A stretch of DNA of 33,850 nucleotides from Gammaproteobacteria bacterium. Its GTDB lineage: Bacteria > Pseudomonadota > Gammaproteobacteria > JAJDYQ01. Both the position numbers and the translations under genes were made by a program. The stretch covers positions 1 to 33,850 of the forward strand of contig JAPYNQ010000024.1 of the NCBI GenBank assembly GCA_028289815.1, given 5' to 3'. Below the pieces are notes generated by a model, which made no database searches, was not told where the DNA came from, and worked only from the letters and a program-made list of their open reading frames with translations. Shown one piece after another: positions 17,800 through 22,335 of the stretch. Position 1 is the first letter of the stretch, and each line of letters opens with the position of its first letter.

Positions 17800-18165
17800 C
17801 TAATCCCATTCAAGGGCACCTTTCTTCCATTCGTAGATAAAGCCCACGACCAGAATCAAAAGAAATATACCCATCGCAATCATGGCAAATAATTGTTGTG
17901 CCCCTAAATCTTCAAGCACCACCGCCCAAGGAAATAAAAAGGCAATTTCCAGATCGAAAATAATAAAGAGGATCGCCACAAGATAATAACGAACATCGAA
18001 TCTCATCCGGGTATCCTCGAATGCCTCAAAACCACATTCGAAGGGGGAATTTTTCTGATCGTTCGGACGCCGAGGCCCAAGTATGAAGCCAGCAGCCATT
18101 GAACCGACACCGAACAGCAGCGCCATCACCAGAAATAACAAAATCGGCAAATAATTTTCCAGCAT
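17800..18165 (-). CDS. nuoA: NADH-quinone oxidoreductase subunit A
   Basis: Three-helix membrane subunit at the quinone chamber, 121 residues, first gene of the nuo operon. The loop between helices 1 and 2 contains the conserved [39 protein letters not shown] region, with the glutamates and aspartate typical of the family. The ATG at 18165 is preceded by GGGTGATAC, a weak to moderate ribosome-binding site. Upstream is a 215-bp leader with hairpins and then the foreign islet, so the promoter for the whole respiratory operon must lie in that leader or beyond the islet. Confidence 0.97.
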
Positions 18166-18244
18166 GTATCACCCATATATGTCGTTATGATAACCAATCG
18201 GCTGCCAACATCGCCTGAGAAAGGCAGACAATAGGTGATGCCGG

Positions 18245-18272
18245 TCTGGCTGTCAATCTGACCAAAGCCAGA
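18245..18272 (-). promoter_or_regulatory. Hairpin in the nuoA leader
   Basis: A 7-bp inverted repeat (TCTGGCT / AGCCAGA) encloses a further 3-bp pairing (GTC AATCT GAC), 80-107 nt upstream of the nuoA start. The right arm overlaps a segment (AAAGCCA) that could instead pair with TGGCTTT at 18297-18303, so two alternative folds are possible. Whether it regulates nuo is inferred only. No T-run follows it on the minus strand. Confidence 0.35.
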
Positions 18273-18280
18273 TAGGCACT

Positions 18281-18306
18281 AAAAACCAAGCAGAATTGGC
18301 TTTTTT
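18281..18306 (-). terminator. Terminator-like hairpin at the border of the nuo leader and the islet
   Basis: On the minus strand an AAAGCCAA arm pairs with TTGGTTTT around a 6-nt loop (one G-U pair), ending in a run of five T's. The plus strand has the same arms with one mismatch and a run of six T's. It could end transcription coming from the tRNA side before nuo, or transcription entering the islet. The AT-rich stretch just upstream on the minus strand (18300-18340, with a TATAAA at about 18305) could instead hold the nuo promoter. Confidence 0.4.
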
Positions 18307-18380
18307 ATACAAAAAATATTAAATTTTTTAAGTGAACCCGAGCAGGAACCAATACCCATCCATACTACAAGGCTGATACC

Positions 18381-20491
18381 ATGAGAGCCACCGAAGCCAA
18401 GTTTCTGGACTTCCTCCAAAAGTCGCCACAATTTGTCATCCCGATCTACCAGCGTACATACTCATGGACCAAGCGTGAATGCCGCCAACTTTGGGATGAC
18501 ATCATCCGCACCGGCAGCGACCTTGACATATCAGCTCACTTTGTCGGTTCCATCGTTTACATTGAGGAGAGCCTATACCAAGTTTCCAGCCAATCACCGC
18601 TACTCGTGATTGATGGTCAGCAGAGATTAACTACGATCACGTTGATTCTTGAAGCTCTAGCACGCCAATTGAGGGACAATGAGCCCGTTCCTGGCTTTTC
18701 AGCCAAGAAACTTCGCAGTTATTACTTGCTGAATCCGCTGGAAGATGGAGAACGCAGATTCAAGTTATTGCTCACACAGACCGACAAGACAAGCCTGTTG
18801 GCCTTGACTCAACAGAAGTCACTACCTGCCGAACCATCCATGCGCATTACCGAGAATTTCAATTTCTTCCAAAAGCAAGTGAAGAATCTTGATACCAACT
18901 TCTCCGCGCTGTGCAACGGTCTTGCAAAGCTAGTCTTGGTCGACGTCGCACTCAGTCGAGACCAGGACAATCCTCAGACCATCTTTGAGAGCATGAACTC
19001 GACCGGACGTGCACTGAGTCAAGCCGACCTGATCCGCAATTTCATCCTGATGAGGCTGGATCCCACTCATCAGGCTTGACTATACGAAGATCATTGGCGG
19101 CCAATGGAAACGAGTTTTGGTCAGATAAGGATACGACTTACATTTCGATAGTTTTATGCGGCACTATCTCACCTTCAAGACCGGGGAGATACCAAAGGTT
19201 GGAGCGGTATACGAAGTATTTAAGTCTCATGCTCGAACGCTCAATATAGATGATGCTGGCGTGGATGCACTAGTTGCCAATATTCATATCTTTGCGGGTT
19301 ATTACTGCGCAATGGCACTGGACAAAGAAAAAGACAGGAAACTCGCTGAGGCTTTCCGTAATCTGAGAGAGTTGACAGTTGACGCCGCTTACCCGTTCTT
19401 GCTTGAGCTTTACGACGATTTTTCCAACGGAAGACTTGAAAGTACCGACTTCGAAACTATCGTCCGGTTAATTGAGGCGTACGTATTCCGCCGTGCAGTG
19501 TGTGCAATTCCTACAAACTCTCTGATCAAGACCTTTGCCACTTTCGGGCGTACGCTCCGAAAAGACAGGTACCTTGAGAGCGTCCAAGCTCATCTGCTGA
19601 TGCTCCCGTCCTATCGCCGGTTTCCGAGTGACGAAGAGTTCAAGCGCGAGATTGTCATGTGTGATCTCTACAACTTTGCCCGCAGAAGCTATTGGCTGCG
19701 TCGACTCGAAAACCACAGTCGCAAGGAACGTGTTCCGGTGGACGAGTACACCATTGAGCACATTCTTCCGCAAAACGAGAACCTTTCCACAAAGTGGCGT
19801 GAAGAACTCGGTCCCGAGTGGCAACGCATTCAAGAAAACTGGCTACACACGCTCGGCAATCTCACGTTAACTGGTTACAACTCGGAATACAGCGACCGTC
19901 CCTCCCTAGAAAAGCGTGACATGGAAGGAGGGTTCAGGAAAAGCCCTCTGAACGTTAACAAGGACCTTGGTAACCTTAGCAAGTGGGATGAATTGGCAAT
20001 TACGAAACGCGCTGCACGCCTTGCCAAGGAAGCAGCCGACGTTTGGGCTGCACCTTCACTGGCAGCCGAAGCGCTTGAGTAAGTACCATCCTCGTAGAGA
20101 AGAAGTGAAGCAGCGTTACACGATAGATGACCATCTCCATCTTGAATATGGTTCGCCGACTCGTAGCCTGTTCGAGAGCATCCGAAAGGACATACTGGCC
20201 CTTGATCCGTGTGTTTCGGAAGAATTTCTAAAGCACCATGTCGCCTACAGGGCGGAGAAAAGCTTTGTCGATATTGTTCCCCAGAAAAATCTCCTCCGCC
20301 TTTTTCTCAATCTGCCGTTTCATGAGCTTAGTGAACCGAGAGGTCTGGCCGAAAATGTCACCGGCTTGGGTCATTGGGGAAACGACGATGTACGCTTAGG
20401 CTTCAGCAAGTCGGAAGATCTGCCATATCCTATGGGATTGATACGACAAGCGTTTGAAAAACAAATGGAAAATGGAGAAGTGGAAATGTGA
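18381..20491 (+). pseudogene. Broken DUF262-DUF1524-DUF5655 (GmrSD-like) restriction gene
   Basis: The remains of a protein of about 700 residues. Order: DUF262 nuclease/NTP-binding domain with IPIYQRTYSW (residues 20-29) and DGQQR (78-82); DUF1524 His-Me-like nuclease with TIEHILPQNE and LGNLTLTGYN (about 19750-19880); and a C-terminal DUF5655 domain (about 20110-20480, LFESIRKDILALDP, FVDIVPQ, ending PYPMGLIRQAFEKQM). Relatives such as GmrSD and BrxU cut modified-cytosine phage DNA. Four lesions break it: a TGA at 19077-19079 where a CGA (Arg) is expected (in-frame continuation LYEDHWRPM), a frame change near 19100-19125, another near 19135-19142, and a one-base shift near 20082 after AAEALE. 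Between lesions the sequence is clean, suggesting fairly recent loss. It is on the opposite strand to all neighbours and is probably acquired. AAGG 11 nt before the ATG is a weak ribosome-binding site. Confidence 0.88.
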
Positions 20492-20768
20492 TAGAGATCA
20501 AAACCTGTAAGCGCTTTAACTCCACCATCCATCCGGGAGCAGTTCGTAAATTTCCGTGAAGACTCGTCGCTTACCGACTTGGAGTCGTTTAACGAAAAAC
20601 GTGTCGATTGACCTACTAAATACAGAGGCACTTGACCACACAAAAGACCAAGATTACAAACTTCCGCCCGATATACTACCAACCACAACCAAAAGTGCCA
20701 TTTGTATTCTAGCTCAGCACCTATGAGACTAAATCAAGTGGCCTGCATGAGTTACTGATAATAACTCA
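20492..20768. other. Unassigned stretch between the two pseudogenes
   Basis: About 280 bp with no credible open frame. Fragments on both strands read as protein-like but match nothing I know. A hairpin with 8-bp arms and a 7-nt loop (ATGAGTTA / TAACTCAT) lies at 20747-20769, directly after the end of the transposase remnant, and might mark that element's end. It is probably eroded accessory DNA. Confidence 0.3.
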
Positions 20769-21600
20769 TTAGGCATCCGAACCAACTCCATCATGGGTCC
20801 GATAGTGGCTATACCGATGTCGGTATTGCGCCATTTTCCTATTAATTGCTTTTACTGTCAGCGCCTCCCGATAGAACAGATAAAACTCCTATCGGCTGGC
20901 ACATCGGCGTACTCCATACAGCCTTAAGTTTTGGGCTTTTGAGAGGTAACACATACAATAGGATATTAAGGTTCTGGCAGACGGTTTCAGGCTCACCTCT
21001 GAATTCACTGCTATCATCAACCCGGATTGAAAGCAGGTCAAACGGCAAATATTTGATGAGGCAGGTAAAAATCCTTGGCATTGCGGCAGACAGCATGGCT
21101 GCATATACGGCCCGGTGGTCATGCCCATGACGAAGCAGATGGCCTCGAAACCCCTTGAGAGTGATACCTTTAAGAAAGGACACACTCATGTGTGTCTATC
21201 TGCGCTAACGCTCCGGGGCACCTAATCTTTGCCTTGTACTTCCAGCGCTTAGCATGTGCTTTCCTGAACCAGGTCCGAGCCGTATAAAGTGAAGCAGGGC
21301 GAATAAGCCCGAGCAGCTTCCTGACAATATATCCAAACCGTGCTGATGCTCAAGACAAGGTATGGTCACGGTTCAGTACCCTACACAGCTTGTGCTTACC
21401 CAACAAGAATGACACCAGCATAGGGTCAATATCTGACGCTCGTGCTTATCGGGCCTACTGCGATCAGCATACGCGCTGGAGACGGCTTGAACGCTTTTCC
21501 AGCTACCGACATACTCTGACGTCGGTAAAACCACCACCAACGACACTACATCTCACTCAAACAGCCAATATCTTTAGGCAATGAATGACTATATCGCTGG
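20769..21600 (-). pseudogene. Heavily decayed IS481-like DDE transposase (integrase core)
   Basis: No frame is open for long, but stitched minus-strand frames give a full transposase in the right order. From the N-terminus: DIVIHCLKILAV and SWKSVQAV (HTH region, 21480-21600); DRSRPDKHE; LGKHKLCRVLNRDHTL; ARTWFRKAHAKRWKYKAK; PGALAQIDT (first catalytic D, near 21200); CRNAKDF; LSIRVDDSSEFR (second D, usual form IQVDGGSEF, near 21010); NILLYVLPLKSPKL, then after a frame change GCMEYADVP (usual form GCVERANRT, third catalytic residue, E, near 20910); and LTVKAINRKMAQYRHRYSHYRTHDGVG, ending at a TAA at 20769-20771. Several stops and frame changes separate the pieces. I could not find terminal inverted repeats or a target duplication, so the element borders are unknown. 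Confidence 0.78.
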
Positions 21601-21755
21601 TTCTATCACTTACTGGCCAACTCTTGTATGGTTCCACCCTCGGGACTCTGAACCGCATCTGATAATCTCCTGTATCTTGAATAAACACACATGGAATGCC
21701 CGATTTTTTTATCCATCAGTCCGAATCAGTTTACTGCCGAAATTCCTATCAGTAA
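21601..21755. other. Unassigned stretch between the transposase remnant and tRNA-Leu
   Basis: About 155 bp with no gene. It probably holds the outer end of the IS remnant and the region just past the tRNA 3' end. No hairpin with a T-run is visible on the minus strand, so the end of the tRNA transcript is not evident. Confidence 0.3.
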
Positions 21756-21840
21756 TGGTGCCGATGGCCGGACTCGAACCGGCACGGCTTGCGCCACTAC
21801 CCCCTCAAGATAGCGTGTCTACCAATTCCACCACATCGGC
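21756..21840 (-). tRNA. tRNA-Leu (anticodon GAG)
   Basis: An 85-nt tRNA with CCA encoded. The acceptor stem is GCCGATG / CATCGGC, the D-loop region is TGGTGGAATTGGTAGACAC, and the anticodon stem CTATC / GGTAG encloses the loop TTGAGGG with anticodon GAG (reads CUC/CUU). A long class II variable arm (TGGCGCAAGCCG) follows, then the T-loop GGTTCGAGTCC. Features and sequence match bacterial tRNA-Leu. Its 5' end is 15 bp from the secG stop, the same secG-tRNA-Leu(GAG) order as in E. coli (leuU). Confidence 0.96.
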
Positions 21841-21855
21841 AGCTGAATGCTTACT

Positions 21856-22335
21856 TTAATTACTCAGCGGTATCGGATTATCCGCAGCAGGGCGGCCCGG
21901 GTCGTTTTCTCCTACAGTCGGAATATCAGGCACCGTAAGCTGGGAGGCACCTTCTTCAAGCGGTATAGCATCTACGCCTGGCGGCTTAAATTCTACTTCT
22001 GAAATTGAGTCCGCTGCGGGTGACGATGACTGCTGAGGCTGCCTTGCCGGCTGAATACCCTCAACCACGCTGGTACGCACTGTGCTTCTGTTCGCCTCAC
22101 TCACGCGTTCTTTTGCGAGCACGGACAAACCCAAAGTCACAACAAAAAAACCGACAGCGGTCCATGTGGTAATTTTTTGCAACAATGACACACTACCGGC
22201 TGCGCCAAATACTGTACCGGCAGAACCACTACCAAACGCGGCACCTGCATCAGCTCCTTTACCGTGCTGCAACAAGACAAGGGCAATCAAGGCTATTGCA
22301 AGAAGCACATCAACAATTACCAGCGCAGTGTACAT
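21856..22335 (-). CDS. secG: Protein translocase subunit SecG
   Basis: Small inner-membrane partner of SecYE that assists SecA-driven protein export. Two transmembrane segments are visible (about 3-22 and 57-74), joined by the glycine/alanine-rich cytoplasmic loop GKGADAGAAFGSGSAGTVFG, which is the SecG signature. At 159 residues it is longer than E. coli SecG (110). The extra length is a hydrophilic C-terminal tail from about residue 85, rich in Pro, Ser, Gln and acidic residues, as seen in several other Gammaproteobacteria. It sits 3' of tpiA and 5' of tRNA-Leu(GAG), a common arrangement. A 137-bp gap before it may hold a promoter, though none is convincing. Confidence 0.94.
   Translation of the reverse strand: MYTALVIVDVLLAIALIALVLLQHGKGADAGAAFGSGSAGTVFGAAGSVSLLQKITTWTAVGFFVVTLGLSVLAKERVSEANRSTVRTSVVEGIQPARQPQQSSSPAADSISEVEFKPPGVDAIPLEEGASQLTVPDIPTVGENDPGRPAADNPIPLSN

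Follow-up and report, generated by a model that had tools for sequence, protein, structure and literature searches.

Downstream of tRNA-Leu(GAG) in a gammaproteobacterial genome, about 3.6 kb of DNA separate this gene from nuoA, the first gene of the nuo operon. The locus raises the question whether this DNA is a foreign insert that subsequently decayed and, if so, how it entered and whether the place is a habitual site of integration. The window, that is, the whole stretch of 33,850 nucleotides that was analysed, forms contig C17 in a 2.18-Mb genome assembled into 89 contigs. From the comparisons described below, it is very likely that the islet originated by a lineage-specific insertion of a horizontally acquired GmrSD-type gene that then decayed.

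The islet and its borders

The flanks of the islet and its unassigned parts are the following (L035 and L036 are the corresponding loci of two congeners).

17800-18165, minus strand: nuoA, the left flank (Pfam Oxidored_q4, 1e-39)
18228-18256, minus strand: nuo promoter TTGACA-17-TATTGT, conserved in L035 and L036, where the native left flank ends
18259-18380, no strand: AT-rich islet leader, GC 0.37, beginning where homology to L035 ends (18258)
21190-21754, no strand: about 560 bp of DNA without a match in Pfam, both congeners or plasmids
21756-21840, minus strand: tRNA-Leu(GAG), intact, with the islet on its 3' side
21856-22335, minus strand: secG, the right flank (Pfam SecG, 4e-18)

In the alignment with L035, homology stops at 18258 and restarts at 21755, and the islet proper comprises at most 18259-21754. 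The initial annotation placed the islet at 18166-21755; the islet is there, but 18166-18258 is the native nuo leader with its conserved promoter and lies outside. The right edge is the 3' end of tRNA-Leu(GAG) and the left edge is located 2 bp beyond the -35 box of the nuo promoter; because both edges fall just outside these elements, the promoter and the tRNA are undamaged. The distance from the promoter to the nuoA start is 91, 92 and 95 nt in the window, L035 and L036, respectively, and across the three species the promoter consists of TTGACA, a spacer of 17 or 18, and TATTGT, TATAGT or TATTCT. The left edge can be placed only to within about 120 bp, given that the 45-bp spacer of L035 is unrecognisable in the window, and part of the 18259-18380 leader could be diverged native spacer.

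The leader contains a hairpin at approximately 18277-18310 (fold z = -2.66; 2 of 200 shuffles fold equally well) that is absent from the list of a dedicated scan. There are A and T runs on both sides of it. This hairpin may be a terminator, possibly a two-way one between the islet and the nuo promoter.

A broken GmrSD-type gene

The plus strand of the islet encodes a GmrSD-like type IV restriction gene, full-length but broken by one stop and two frameshifts, in agreement with the plus-strand restriction-type pseudogene of the initial annotation.

18381-19079, plus strand: part 1, GmrSD_N (DUF262), with the DGQQR motif kept, ending at an in-frame TGA
19080-20079, plus strand: part 2, past the TGA, with a frameshift near 19125-19131, followed by GmrSD_C (DUF1524) with HNH-type motifs
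20093-20488, plus strand: part 3, DUF5655, after a second frameshift near 20080-20092

The three domains reside in three reading frames: GmrSD_N in the ORF at 18381-19076 (PF03235, 1.3e-37), with VIDGQQRLTT in the translation; GmrSD_C in the ORF at 19156-20079 (PF07510, 4.7e-23), with IEHILPQ and LGNLTLTGYN; and DUF5655 in the ORF at 20087-20488 (Pfam, 3.5e-10). The DUF1524 motifs of GmrSD, as defined in PMC4619093, are (E/D)H(I/L/V)xPQ and L(G/A)NLxLLxxxN; compared with the latter consensus, LGNLTLTGYN has T instead of L at one place. Three intact proteins, 696-709 aa long and encoded by a Sulfitobacter plasmid, a Planktothrix plasmid and an Anaerosphaera phage, served as references. The window copy aligns with them from residue 1 up to residue 692-706, according to the reference used, and the identity of individual segments is 45-68%. 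Relative to them, the lesions are the TGA at 19077-19079 (codon 233), a first frameshift near codons 249-256 and a second one near codon 567. The window has neither an intact GmrSD ORF nor intact S and D frames, and the gene is classified as a pseudogene of the GmrSD family.

Two repeat remnants

The segment between the pseudogene and the unmatched DNA includes two remnants.

20505-20690, plus strand: probably what is left of a DDE/rve transposase C-terminus, its extent judged by eye, with the strongest piece at 20571-20610
20702-21136, minus strand: second repeat remnant, heavily decayed, transposase-like by eye, with own-genome matches

The piece at 20571-20610 is 85% identical over 40 bp to a copy elsewhere in the same genome (L004), and the match of the L004 ORF to Pfam rve_3 (E=0.00043), which falls short of the cut-off, is on L004 and not on the window itself. 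The second remnant shows 65% identity to L002 and 80% over 54 bp to L003, both in the same genome, and has no Pfam match. Thus, the single IS remnant originally described is apparently two repeats on opposite strands; they are repeats of this genome, as these matches demonstrate, and putatively transposase ends, with the weak rve_3 match of L004 as the only profile evidence. When fuller copies of each were sought in 56 genomes, the matches were mostly further decayed pieces from the same genome, and one match outside it that was inspected (L153) has no transposase ORF; the 1.27 kb of remnant and unmatched islet DNA have no plasmid match. The genome harbors several decayed copies of both repeat families (L002, L003, L004, L150, L151, L155), which suggests a past IS burst followed by decay.

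Evidence for insertion and foreign origin

The comparison set consists of the two known congeners, both draft genomes, one 87% complete. Their tRNA-nuoA gaps are 140 bp (L035) and 244 bp (L036), with the order tpi-secG-tRNA-Leu-nuoA kept in both, so that approximately 3.5 kb of the window's spacing is missing from each, and islet DNA was not found anywhere in either genome (G001, G002). An empty site in close relatives, one of the marks of a tRNA-integrated island, is accordingly seen in two of two congeners.

The gene itself is distributed patchily. The closest plasmid and phage homologs show 54-67% identity over the GmrSD_C part, and homologs are found on plasmids of Alphaproteobacteria and Cyanobacteria, in a phage, and in an E. 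coli record in which symE and hsd genes are neighbors. Among 368 other genomes of the class, 4 encode homologs at E<=1e-80 (56-65% identity, open frames of 708-735 aa). Neither congener has a GmrSD gene at this threshold; weak GmrSD_C-type matches occur in the window's own genome (C11) and in congener G001 (C10). Judging by these sequence matches, the patchy distribution is a horizontal pattern. GmrSD enzymes have been reported from mobile or defence regions (PMC4619093). The gene (GC 0.49) differs little in base composition from its flanks (0.456 and 0.477) and is not marked as foreign by composition alone; it appears foreign because its spread is patchy and the site is empty in the congeners. 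The E. coli homolog (L140:4227-6298, between yjiR and symE/hsd) is frameshifted near codon 622 and lacks annotation.

The check proposed in the initial annotation, a comparison of this interval among relatives, thus found it empty in both congeners, and the claims of an accessory islet between tRNA-Leu(GAG) and nuo, and of foreign DNA that arrived and decayed, hold. The suggestion that sister strains may carry other cargo finds no support in the two congeners, which are species-level relatives and empty; other cargo was seen only in distant genomes.

The tRNA-Leu(GAG)-nuoA gap in other genomes

We surveyed 100 loci, and in 88 of them nuoA is preceded by tRNA-Leu(GAG) on its own strand; the other 12, with no tRNA-Leu(GAG) in reach, were excluded. 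The surveyed loci include related species pairs and are to that extent non-independent. The interval is at most 524 bp in 82 of the 88 readable loci and exceeds 1 kb in six.

L041, 5668 bp: GGDEF/EAL-type and other genes
L050, 1143 bp: ABM-domain protein
L062, 3636 bp: fba-fbp-tpi
L069, 1964 bp: displaced nuoB
L086, 9250 bp: integrative element
L090, 3157 bp: GGDEF/EAL-type and other genes

These contents have profile support for L086 and two L050 ORFs, the other names being assigned by eye from translations. In L062 (6773-9818), from a genome labelled Piscirickettsiaceae/Methylophagaceae, an fba-fbp-tpi set occupies the gap, with a second tpi copy. In L069 (8681-10354), nuoB precedes nuoA, with no copy found behind it; either the nuo locus is rearranged or the assembly is faulty. 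Given these two cases, not all long intervals are foreign insertions.

An integrase with att-like repeats is present in only one of the six, L086 (JAGVMP010000004.1, from another proteobacterium), where an integrative element of 9.2 kb (L086:751-10000) occupies the tRNA-Leu(GAG)-nuoA site. It encodes a tyrosine integrase right after the tRNA, an SMEK/ABC-3C protein with a DUF2326 partner, AlpA, and Thoeris ThsB and ThsA, and its 16-bp repeat of the tRNA 3' end, TTCGAGTCTCTCCGTC, occurs at 728 and 9835, the second copy about 150 bp before nuoA.

The site, then, occasionally acquires DNA, in one case through an evident tRNA-integrating element. The "integration hotspot" of the initial annotation stands as far as occasional uptake is concerned (6 of 88 long, one integrase element) and falters on the fact that the gap is usually empty (82 of 88 short); with a window insert that lacks both an integrase and an above-chance att repeat, it is only partly supported. 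We would advance no more than tentatively the broader idea that the space from tRNA-Leu(GAG) to the nuo promoter serves, throughout Gammaproteobacteria (in the GTDB sense), as a neutral site at which defence genes and other cargo land repeatedly. Under this scenario, the gap would stay usable because it is bounded by the tRNA end and the promoter, both undamaged; the relevant cargo comprises GmrSD in the window, Thoeris and ABC-3C in L086, and other genes in L041, L050, L062 and L090. Literature searches on the tRNA-Leu(GAG)-nuoA integration site and on DUF5655 found no paper on either.

How the gene may have arrived and what became of it

Specifically, we propose that a type IV, modification-dependent restriction gene of the single-chain GmrSD type, ending in a DUF5655 domain, came into the short tRNA-Leu(GAG)-nuo promoter gap once the window's species had split from its two known congeners. 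The gap appears to tolerate an insert because the tRNA and the promoter, as seen here, stay whole. Since then, the gene has been inactivated by the stop and the two frameshifts seen in the assembly; decayed repeats, putatively IS fragments with transposase ends, lie beside it. Entry could have been by IS-linked or illegitimate recombination, or through a tRNA-targeting element that lost its integrase and att repeat.

The last of these routes is a narrower form of the horizontal-insertion explanation rather than its opposite: the islet would be the remnant of an element with a tyrosine integrase and tRNA-Leu(GAG) as attB, from which the integrase and the distal att were lost. The position of the right islet edge at the tRNA 3' end and the integrase, AlpA and tRNA-end repeat of L086 at the same place are consistent with such an origin, whereas Pfam detects no integrase among the islet ORFs, and a search for the direct repeat of the tRNA 3' end that should mark the distal islet border yielded a best match of only chance level. 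The best att-like match (21643-21655) was reached by 103/300 and 135/300 shuffles and is located close to the tRNA instead of at the opposite end of the islet, which leaves this route possible but doubtful. A decayed att repeat at 21629-21658 (18/30 matches), proposed by eye, was rejected because shuffles do as well. The L086 integrase has no match at E<=1e-90 in the window's genome or in 274 genomes of the class, results that carry little weight.

That the gene is not dead, either functioning as separate subunits, as in split GmrS/GmrD, or broken only through draft-assembly errors, is unlikely. The breaks coincide with domain borders or lie close to them, the key motifs are preserved, and both split and fused forms exist in the GmrSD family according to PMC4619093. 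However, approximately 15 codons past the TGA, outside both split ORFs, still match the intact relatives in the original frame, and a stable split would lose them; therefore, either the gene was inactivated recently compared with the divergence or assembly errors account for the lesions. Three lesions are packed in 2.1 kb, whereas the neighboring nuoA, nuoB, secG and tpi are open.

An old, vertically inherited resident lost in both congeners is highly improbable: despite the flank-like GC and the heavy decay of the remnants, the GmrSD query matched 0 of the 100 surveyed loci, so that the same remnants in distant relatives, which the initial annotation named as the sign of old inheritance, were not found, the readable gaps are mostly short, and the gene is rare in the class.

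Under the preferred reading, insertion followed by decay, the islet is an ordinary genome scar of a well-understood kind, with well-known biology: a further case in which a single lineage gained and then lost a phage-defence gene next to a tRNA, with both neighbors intact. In Gammaproteobacteria, the tRNA-Leu(GAG)-nuoA gap merits inspection for defence islands.

Comparison with known systems

GmrSD type IV enzymes cleave modified (glucosylated or hydroxymethylated) DNA, and, by analogy with this family, the product of the ancestral gene probably once cut modified phage DNA. Eco94GmrSD is an example of a single-chain enzyme of this type. Like the single-chain members of the family, the window gene has GmrSD_N and GmrSD_C with their motifs (here VIDGQQRLTT, and IEHILPQ and LGNLTLTGYN, respectively) and the fused order S-D; unlike them, the window copy carries the extra C-terminal DUF5655 and is a pseudogene. 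The L086 island and the window islet both sit 3' of tRNA-Leu(GAG), before nuoA, with defence cargo, but the islet lacks the integrase, AlpA and a supported att repeat. Further counterparts are the fused DUF262-DUF1524-DUF5655 proteins of about 700 aa from the Sulfitobacter plasmid (WP_260001466.1), the Planktothrix plasmid (WP_235752391.1) and the Anaerosphaera phage (XPP58303.1), with which the window copy is collinear over the full length; these three are single open frames, whereas the window copy is interrupted by a stop and two frameshifts.
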